Positions 3,568 through 5,578 of a DNA stretch of 21,706 nucleotides are shown in pieces; the first letter of the stretch is position 1, and every line of letters starts with the position of its first letter. The translations under genes were made by a program, and so were the position numbers. This DNA is from a virus, in IMG/VR virus record IMGVR_UViG_3300030109_001617, positions 1 through 21,706 of that record. One strand, 5' to 3'. Under the pieces are notes generated by a model. It was not told the origin of the DNA. It did no database searches and worked only from the letters and a program-made list of their open reading frames with translations.

Positions 3568-3756
3568 ATGGCTAAACATACTAAAGGTGCTGCTAATGGT
3601 GGCAAGAAGAAAAAGAAGCCAATCAAGAAAATGCAGAGTGGTGGAATGAAAATGACCAAGGGCATGGCTCGTGGTGGAGCTAAGACTAAAATGAAAATGG
3701 GCGGCTCTAAGATGACTAAGGGATATGCCAGGGGTGGAGCAATAAGACGTAAGTAA
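3568..3756 (+). CDS. Lys/Gly/Met-rich repeat protein (62 aa)
   Basis: A very short, extremely basic protein with a good ribosome site (AAGGAG). The sequence is low complexity: a KKKKK block, then two copies of a repeat of about 17 residues centred on KMTKGMARGGA and KMTKGYARGGA. Similar MTKGYARGGA-type peptides are common in marine phage genomes as far as I recall, without assigned function. Composition suggests electrostatic binding to DNA or RNA. Its stop overlaps the next start (TAATG). Confidence 0.7.
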   Translation: MAKHTKGAANGGKKKKKPIKKMQSGGMKMTKGMARGGAKTKMKMGGSKMTKGYARGGAIRRK

Positions 3757-4451
3757 TGCCGTATCTCATAAGTAACGTACCCCATTTTAAGTGCTGGGTA
3801 CGTAGGGAGTTTACGTGCAACCATCAAAAGTACCATGGAGAGTTTCTTCATGCTATGGTTATAGCCGTAAACACAATCCCAGATAGGTCTTTAAGCTTCC
3901 AAGTTGTTTTCACTGGTTGCGAAGTAGACCGAGAAGATGGTCCTGATGCGAATGTGCATGGAGGAGCAATGTGGGCAAGGATGCCTATACAAGCCCTAGT
4001 CGCAGATATACCTGTAGAAGAATGGGCAGAACCTATGGAAGACCATTTGTGTCAACCATGGGATTGCGAATCAAGAACACATAGTGTTGTAGTTATGGAT
4101 AGAGTCAGCTCTTCTCCATGGCTATGTAAGATTGATAATCAGTTCCATAAAGGTAAGTATTTATTTACAGTTGACTACACAGAGAATGACATTGCAGATG
4201 ACCCAGCACAACATAAGCAGTCTCATGTATTGTACTTAACTGATGCAGGTAAATGGACAGGTAATATTGTAGCTTTACCTAACAACAGAGTTAGAGCAAC
4301 AAGTCCTGCACTATGGAGAACTGGAGAAGGTGCACCAGATTTTAGCCCTTCACAGTGGACACACTCTGCAGAGTCACATGAAACTTACTTAGACCCTACA
4401 ATAACTTTTAATAACTTATATTCAGATGGCAGCAAAAAGAAAAAAAAGTGA
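3756..4451 (+). CDS. Conserved marine-phage hypothetical protein (231 aa)
   Basis: A well-folded-looking, neutral to acidic protein that stands out among the basic neighbours. It is rich in tryptophan and histidine. Recognisable blocks are HFKCWVRREF near the start, HGGAMWARMPI (about 68-78), HLCQPWDCESRTHSVV (about 96-112), KYLFTVDYTENDIADDPAQH (about 133-153) and GNIVALPNNRVRATSP (about 168-184). I recall close relatives in cyanophages and other marine phages, always unassigned. A beta-rich structural or virion-associated role is possible. There is no membrane segment. The last 26 bases overlap the next gene. The end (SDGSKKKKK) is basic, perhaps a by-product of that overlap. Confidence 0.8.
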   Translation: MPYLISNVPHFKCWVRREFTCNHQKYHGEFLHAMVIAVNTIPDRSLSFQVVFTGCEVDREDGPDANVHGGAMWARMPIQALVADIPVEEWAEPMEDHLCQPWDCESRTHSVVVMDRVSSSPWLCKIDNQFHKGKYLFTVDYTENDIADDPAQHKQSHVLYLTDAGKWTGNIVALPNNRVRATSPALWRTGEGAPDFSPSQWTHSAESHETYLDPTITFNNLYSDGSKKKKK

Positions 4452-4734
4452 CCCTAAAGTTGGAACAGGGAAAAAGCCAAAGGGGTCGGATAGACGTTTA
4501 TATACTGATGAAAACCCTAAGGACACAGTTAGAATTAAATTTGCTACTCCAGCAGATGCTAGAGCGACAGTCGCAAAAGTTAGAAAAGTTAATAAACCTT
4601 ATGCACGAAAGATACAAATCCTAACAGTTATGGAACAACGTGCCAAGGTTATGGGTAAAACCGAAGTAGTTAAAATAGCAAAAGTAGCTAAAGAAAGTCT
4701 AAAGAGGGCACATGAACGAAAAAAGAAAAAATAG
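4426..4734 (+). CDS. Basic hypothetical protein (102 aa)
   Basis: The gene starts inside the end of the previous one, with no clear Shine-Dalgarno, so translation is probably coupled. The product has a basic N-terminal tail (AAKRKKSDPKVGTGKKPKG), a central conserved-looking segment with DRRLYTDENPKDTVRIKF and ATPADARATVAKV, then helices rich in lysine, ending in HERKKKK. I recall the YTDENP-x-DTV-x-IKF block from other marine viral genomes but cannot name the family safely. Nucleic-acid binding would fit the charge; function unknown. Confidence 0.75.
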   Translation: MAAKRKKSDPKVGTGKKPKGSDRRLYTDENPKDTVRIKFATPADARATVAKVRKVNKPYARKIQILTVMEQRAKVMGKTEVVKIAKVAKESLKRAHERKKKK

Positions 4735-4840
4735 ATGCGAGACTTGCGAATGTTATGATTGCGATTGTGACGAGTGTAACTGCGATTGCCACGAAGAAAA
4801 ATCCACTGAAGAACAACTGGAGTTGGATTTTATTAATTAA
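4712..4840 (+). CDS. Cysteine-rich metallothionein-like microprotein (42 aa)
   Basis: A 42-codon gene starting at ATG 4712 inside the end of the upstream gene, behind an AGAGGG ribosome site. It ends in TAA 4838-4840, whose last base is the A of the next ATG. Residues 9-27 hold eight cysteines and one histidine: C9, C12, C14, C17, C19, C22, C24, C26 and H27, mostly spaced by one or two acidic residues. Dense C-x-C and C-x2-C spacing is the hallmark of metallothioneins and other metal-cluster peptides. The tail is acidic (EEKSTEEQLELDF). Binding of zinc, copper or an iron-sulphur cluster is inferred. No known family match was recalled. A wrong-frame artefact is unlikely given eight regularly spaced cysteines and the double stop/start overlap. 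Confidence 0.75.
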   Translation: MNEKRKNRCETCECYDCDCDECNCDCHEEKSTEEQLELDFIN

Positions 4841-5022
4841 TGATTGAGTTTGTGTTGGTGTTTATGATGGGAATAAGAGTAGTAGACCAAACACAAACTT
4901 TCCAGGATATAGATAGATGTTTGTATTTTGCAGAGAGATTAACAAAACAACCTTCAATACCACAACAGGAAGGACCTAATCTAAGAATAACAGCATATTG
5001 TAAACCCATAAGGAAAAGATAA
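4840..5022 (+). CDS. Small cysteine-containing protein, paralogue-like to the gene at 1167 (60 aa)
   Basis: The product begins with a hydrophobic stretch (MIEFVLVFMMGIRVV) that may be a signal or anchor. A helix DIDRCLYFAERL follows, and an ITAYCKPI strand near the end. The two cysteines (about residues 27 and 54) sit as in the 71-aa protein at 1167-1382 (QCVQRAYEIA and MKYKCV). This suggests one family of exported disulphide mini-proteins present twice. Start and stop are both in TAATG overlaps, so it is coupled to the cysteine-rich microgene before it and the membrane protein after it. Function unknown. Confidence 0.75.
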   Translation: MIEFVLVFMMGIRVVDQTQTFQDIDRCLYFAERLTKQPSIPQQEGPNLRITAYCKPIRKR

Positions 5023-5462
5023 TGTTAGCAGAACTCGCAGCAGCAAATGCAGCTTTCAGTGTAATCAAAAGTTTTGTATCCAACGGAAAAGAACTTACAG
5101 GGTGTGCTAAACAGATATCTGATTTTGTATTTTCAAAGGAACAATTGGAAAAGAAAGCAAGTAAACAAAAAGCCAAAGGGGGGAGTTCTGATTTAGAAGA
5201 GTTCATGGCTCTTGAGCAGATAAAAGAAAAAGAAGAAGAACTCAAGAAGATGATGATATACATAGGCAGACCTGGCTTATGGCAAGATTGGCAGGCTTTC
5301 CAAGCTGAAGCAAGAAAGTCAAGACGCTATCAAGAGAAGATGGCAGAGAGAAGACAAGCAGAGTTAATGGAATATTTTGGTTATGGTATAGCTTTTATAT
5401 TCGTACTATTCTTTGCAGGGTTACTAGCTTGGATTGTTGGTAAATGGACAGGGAAACTTTAA
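5022..5462 (+). CDS. Coiled-coil membrane protein with C-terminal anchor (146 aa)
   Basis: The N-terminal 20 residues are alanine-rich and amphipathic (AELAAANAAFSVIKSF). A long charged region with coiled-coil potential spans about 39-78 (EQIKEKEEELKKMM), followed by YIGRPGLWQDWQAFQ (80-94). A basic helix precedes one clear transmembrane segment at about 119-141, and a short basic tail ends the protein. Similar proteins occur in marine phages as I recall. Its place in the cassette with lysis genes allows a second holin, antiholin or spanin-like role, but no lipobox or signal sequence is seen. The stop region overlaps the next microgene by 19 bases. Confidence 0.75.
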   Translation: MLAELAAANAAFSVIKSFVSNGKELTGCAKQISDFVFSKEQLEKKASKQKAKGGSSDLEEFMALEQIKEKEEELKKMMIYIGRPGLWQDWQAFQAEARKSRRYQEKMAERRQAELMEYFGYGIAFIFVLFFAGLLAWIVGKWTGKL

Positions 5463-5578
5463 CACCTTGCATAGGCGTATGTAAACTTGAAGATGATATT
5501 TGTATTGGATGTAAGAGAACTATAGAAGAGATTAAGGAAGCATATGATAAATTGGTTATTAAAAATCCTAAGACATAA
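5444..5578 (+). CDS. DUF1289-type cysteine microprotein (44 aa)
   Basis: ATG at 5444 lies in the end of the membrane-protein gene; the frame runs 44 codons to TAA at 5576-5578. Residues 8-30 carry P-C9-IGV-C13, then C20-IG-C23-KRT-IEEI. This is the exact arrangement of the DUF1289 family (PF06945): PC-x-x-x-C, about six residues, C-x-G-C-x-R-T-x-x-E-I. That family is common in proteobacteria as a short stand-alone protein or next to other domains. The four cysteines suggest zinc or another metal. The role is unknown; acquisition from a proteobacterial host is a reasonable inference. Confidence 0.8.
   Translation: MDRETLTPCIGVCKLEDDICIGCKRTIEEIKEAYDKLVIKNPKT

Follow-up and report, generated by a model that had tools for sequence, protein, structure and literature searches.

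A conserved gene for a cysteine-rich, predicted metal-binding mini-protein in phages related to HMO-2011

Does an open reading frame (ORF) of only 42 codons, crowded with cysteine codons and wedged between two other phage genes, encode a functional protein, and if so, of what kind? The question arises from positions 4712–4840 (+ strand) of IMG/VR record IMGVR_UViG_3300030109_001617, a 21.7-kb fragment that was analysed over its full 21,706 nucleotides and is referred to here as the window. Based on sequence comparison, the window belongs to the HMO-2011-type marine podovirus lineage, as its portal protein is 64% identical to that of HMO-2011 over 92% of the length and it carries an SU10-type portal and adaptor. 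The ORF runs from ATG to TAA and encodes the peptide MNEKRKNRCETCECYDCDCDECNCDCHEEKSTEEQLELDFIN, in which C9, C12, C14, C17, C19, C22, C24 and C26 together with H27 fall within 19 residues. An earlier note, made from the DNA letters alone, had described eight cysteines and one histidine in this space and overlaps with the genes on both sides, and this description is accurate in every detail: the overlap amounts to 23 nt with the upstream 102-aa gene and to 1 nt (TAATG) with the downstream 60-aa gene. The 19 codons from C9 to H27 form a conserved core (4736–4792, +) of the pattern C-x-T-C-[EK]-C-Y-[DE]-C-x4-C-x-C-x-C-H, which lies wholly beyond the stretch overlapping the upstream gene. It is followed by a variable C-terminal tail (4793–4837, +), here EEKSTEEQLELDFIN. 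Tails are swapped among relatives, with QLELDF, EVQGVPV, VAEKGND and SDTEI types; the QLELDF type resembles what we take to be a sliding-clamp-binding motif.

Cysteine density alone is not decisive, as a wrong-frame stretch on the minus strand of the window encodes 12 cysteines in 19 residues. The exact cysteine skeleton, however, occurred in none of 60 simulated windows, and chance is therefore an insufficient account, even though dense wrong-frame cysteine runs do occur in repeats. Relatives were gathered from IMG/VR by three independent anchors, namely the upstream gene, the downstream gene and the family's own profile, the last of which reported 117 relatives. Together they yielded 102 distinct loci with the motif; at the core, these comprise 90 different DNA sequences encoding 58 different peptides. 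Among the 78 testable loci that were fetched via the 60-aa gene only, 71 carried the strict motif directly upstream of that gene, and one more (L242) contained the core but had no start codon that could be recognised. In the other six the gene was cleanly missing and the 102-aa gene abutted the 60-aa gene; a decayed core was found in none of the 78. In loci fetched via the 102-aa gene, the ORF followed directly in about 20 of 80 and was located elsewhere in a few. Profile searches showed a single copy in the window contig and in 12 of 12 longer contigs of relatives. The earlier note had named loss of the frame or of its cysteines in relatives as the outcome that would speak against a gene. With anchors independent of the peptide no such loss was seen, except in a natural variant (L147, positions 1051–1170, CDTCEGYDCNCEECTCDCH) that has glycine in place of C14 and retains C19, which shows that a rule of eight ligands is not absolute. 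Five further loci (L146, L149, L150, L151 and L156) had no 102-aa gene detectable by tblastn upstream of the core, and there the frame of the core stays open far upstream. The ORF at 4712–4840 is hence a real and strongly conserved gene rather than a product of chance.

The substitutions in the core reveal what is being conserved. In the downstream-anchored set, pS reached 1.00 (saturated) and pN 0.08, and the Jukes-Cantor (JC)-corrected dN/dS of close pairs was 0.15; the comparison of synonymous with non-synonymous change that had been put forward as a check thus points to strong selection at the protein level. Variable columns in the same set numbered 7, 3 and 19 (out of 19 each) for the first, second and third codon positions, and TGT and TGC interchange at every invariant cysteine codon. 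This pattern of codon variation, together with the free switching between TGT and TGC, indicates that the sense frame is under selection and not the antisense or +1 frame. All 58 motif-selected core peptides are identical at Cys9, 12, 14, 17, 22, 24 and 26, His27, Thr11 and Tyr15, and residue 8, just before C9, is arginine or lysine in every one. E13, [DE]16, D18, [DE]20, [DE]21 and [NST]23 are nearly conserved in this set, which leaves 10, 19 and 25 as the only loosely constrained positions. The core is free of indels and its spacing is fixed. Since these invariance counts rest on sequences chosen by motif, the argument is carried by the downstream-anchored set and by scans of the whole collection. 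In DNA scans of all IMG/VR that required GAN at positions 16 and 20, the same skeleton was never found with a Thr11 codon not beginning with A or a Tyr15 codon not beginning with T; these scans covered replacements with a non-A first base at 11 and a non-T first base at 15. The matches listed for a relaxed skeleton were all spurious, coming from repeats read in the wrong frame with hardly any acidic residues, and were discarded. C19 is present in about half of the sequences. The count of eight cysteines in the earlier note is thus correct for the peptide of the window and has to be revised for the family, in which the conserved set of candidate ligands comprises seven cysteines and one histidine, with C19 dispensable.

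The gene resides in a + strand cluster with a lysozyme gene, a holin-like gene, small basic genes, terminase and portal. The upstream gene (4426–4734, +), which encodes a basic protein of 102 aa, is a usual but not an obligatory neighbour: it is located elsewhere in L020 and L033, and none turned up immediately upstream in L152 or L155. The constant partner is the downstream 60-aa gene (4840–5022, +), whose product has a hydrophobic N-terminus and two cysteines. It is normally followed by a 146-aa gene (5022–5462, +) of unknown function (phrog_32327), whose product has a hydrophobic segment at the C-terminus, and the order of cysteine gene, 60-aa gene and, usually, 146-aa gene recurs in relatives including these four. 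In 57 of 71 loci, the gap between the stop of the cysteine gene and the start of the 60-aa gene is −1, −4 or −8, values that would be expected if translation is coupled, and Shine-Dalgarno (SD)-like sites precede 21 of 60 starts compared to a background of 13%.

This arrangement is reminiscent of the poly-cysteine leader peptides of attenuation type, which are likewise short cysteine-rich ORFs overlapping a downstream start. The peptide could accordingly sense cysteine and tune translation of the coupled gene, and the cluster of cysteine codons, the stop/start overlap and the constant downstream gene would fit such a role. Such a leader would need only its cysteine codons conserved and its spacing to the regulated gene kept constant. 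In the phage gene, selection acts on the entire peptide, with His, Thr, Tyr, [RK] and the exact spacing kept and the spacers constrained at the protein level, while tails of different length place the cluster anywhere from about 8 to over 20 codons away from the next start. We therefore consider a cysteine-sensing leader highly improbable.

Several other cysteine-rich or metal-related ORFs were observed in the window and in related contigs. A 44-aa ORF at 5444–5578 of the window matches DUF1289 (PF06945, E 2e-10, four cysteines) and occurs near the cysteine gene in many relatives, though not in all. The 231-aa gene at 3756–4451 matches phrog_3704, annotated as 'ferredoxin' (E 3e-31), a label that seems doubtful; Pfam gave no match for this gene. 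Phage iron-sulphur genes (IscU/NifU_N, ErpA-type) were absent from all 12 tested contigs with the cysteine gene, some of which are fragments. A distinct ORF of 24 aa in L051 (4206–4280), shared with L275 and L293, encodes MTKCICGCGCSDSEQCTCKECDCK with eight cysteines. It starts behind a good ribosome-binding site, overlaps the next ORF by ATGA, lies about 550 bp upstream of a homologue of the 102-aa gene and is possibly a second, unrelated cysteine-rich mini-protein. Among the matches listed in a scan for this peptide, only L275 and L293 were relatives, the rest being wrong-frame junk. A further cysteine-rich stretch, MGCTCDDDGSNCGCDCESPEVCKCRSNPNDDVR, forms the end of an ORF in another related phage contig (L044, 3281–3571).

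What kind of protein the gene encodes was addressed by comparison with known families. The earlier note had called it metallothionein-like. This stands insofar as the gene is hidden, conserved, cysteine-rich and probably metal-binding; membership in the PF02069 family does not. None of 74 members matched PF02069 up to E = 1, and thus none reached the Pfam gathering threshold, whereas SmtA as a control matched it at 1.7e-20 in that library. Mycobacterial MymT, the second control, was not recognised by any Pfam model, and a metallothionein type may therefore go undetected by Pfam. PHROGs v4 yielded no match for any of the 74 members, and PDB profiles gave nothing of substance for the members or for their profile; no homologue of known structure or function emerged from Pfam, PHROGs or PDB. 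A scan of IMG/VR with SmtA found no relative, which says little because such a single-protein query finds close relatives only. We know of no described family with this Cys/His signature. Taken at the level of sequence, the peptides very probably represent a new family of cysteine-rich mini-proteins of metal-binding type. A search of openly accessible literature returned no relevant paper on a phage metallothionein; the sole candidate, PMC3974807, lists a host gene.

Metal binding as such is predicted with high confidence. The peptide has no hydrophobic start, which should leave its thiols reduced in the cytosol, and the product is very likely a cytosolic metal-thiolate peptide. Such a peptide might act as a functional metallothionein, a buffer or scavenger that soaks up zinc or copper from the dismantled host or starves host metalloenzymes. 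Its small size, its cytosolic nature, the lack of secondary structure and the C-x-C and C-x2-C spacing, with seven to eight cysteines in 19 residues and all eight of the window's peptide inside 18 positions, are what would be expected in this case. Like SmtA and BmtA (PF02069), it is small, cytosolic and dense in cysteines arranged in C-x-C and C-x2-C motifs, and its core ends in C-x-C-H where SmtA ends in CNCH. It differs from them in lacking a profile match, in its shorter core of 19 residues, its acidic spacers and its invariant Thr and Tyr, and in having been found here only in phages. The Neurospora-type copper metallothionein of fungi is a single domain with seven cysteines in about 20 residues and resembles the phage peptide in this respect; its spacing is different, it has Gly/Ser spacers and no histidine, and there is no evidence of kinship. 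Metallothioneins have few or no aromatic residues, yet Tyr15 inside the cluster is invariant in the 58 motif-selected cores. Invariant Tyr and Thr, acidic spacers and an indel-free core are unusual for this class, and the cysteine number, fixed apart from the optional C19, also speaks against it. A role of this kind would have a marine parallel in cyanobacteria, where metallothionein serves as a zinc store (PMC9337993). On balance, a functional metallothionein appears rather unlikely.

We favour, with a probability of roughly one half, a phage-specific mini-domain that would bind a defined number of two metal ions, probably zinc, over a loose metallothionein. Two-zinc mini-domains with eight Cys/His ligands are a general structural class, and the phage core resembles them in its eight possible tetrahedral ligands (seven Cys and one His), its rigid spacing and its conserved non-ligand residues. 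It is much shorter (about 19 residues) than known cross-brace domains, and no sequence relation was found in the PDB. The eight conserved ligands, the rigid spacing and the conserved neighbours fit two tetrahedral sites, and the frozen stoichiometry, spacing and residues around the ligands suggest a defined, zinc-loaded mini-domain rather than a bulk buffer. After a basic start, the core would fold around a pair of divalent metal ions (Zn2+ being the likeliest), bound either in one Cys4-type and one Cys3His-type site or in a small bridged cluster. AlphaFold predicted a low-confidence coil (pLDDT 63, pTM 0.27) without regular secondary structure in the core, over which confidence was best; this is weak evidence, compatible with a fold held by metal but no proof for or against one.

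The same features bear on two other possible functions. A thiol-redox peptide or disulfide-bonded mini-protein acting on host or phage proteins might be suspected from the C-x-x-C pairs and from the downstream product with its hydrophobic N-terminus and two cysteines. The peptide itself carries no export signal, and the histidine after C-x-C-x-C and the odd number of seven conserved cysteines suit metal ligands better than disulfides, which makes this quite improbable. Alternatively, a zinc-dependent regulator could bind host RNA polymerase or nucleic acid; small zinc-binding phage regulators exist, and the conserved [RK] before the core and the rigid, conserved non-ligand residues would be compatible with one. 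The strongly acidic core and the location of the gene in a lysis/packaging cluster instead of the early region render it improbable. If the two-metal mini-domain is correct, it would be made from a late operon together with the 60-aa and 146-aa proteins, its stop coupled to the next start. It would take up zinc late in infection and then hold it or hand it over, or else offer a zinc-structured face that binds a partner, and would not be a bulk metal buffer. Its role may thus lie in zinc capture and transfer or in that of a zinc-structured adaptor.

The gene is unevenly distributed. On a TerL tree, it occurs in the clade of the window and among phages nearer to HMO-2011, and is missing in HMO-2011 and CRP-345. 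Its distribution requires three changes on this tree and may reflect gain as well as loss. A profile that recovers all 12 tested relatives and the window did not find it in 20 whole records of related phages, including HMO-2011, HTVC033P, HTVC103P/104P/115P and many CRP roseophages. A tblastn search of the phage collection with the peptide gave no match, although the query may be masked there by low-complexity filtering. In 84,980 cellular genomes, the only match came from Alistipes; it spans no more than 17 residues and was set aside.

A gene for a cysteine-rich mini-protein has gone unrecorded by standard annotation and yet is kept in a hundred related phages. It illustrates that phage family libraries lack genes that are strongly selected but fall short of the usual length cut-offs, PHROGs having no entry for it. 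It is possible, though less likely than not, that these peptides, of about 40 aa, constitute a new phage-only family of two-metal mini-domains, among the smallest zinc domains known, which could serve in late theft of zinc from host proteins or in docking to a host target. HMO-2011-type phages reportedly dominate and are widespread in the ocean (PMC9038755). If the prediction is true, a conserved metal-thiolate peptide carried by some of these phages would directly link phage infection to the handling of trace metals in metal-poor water.
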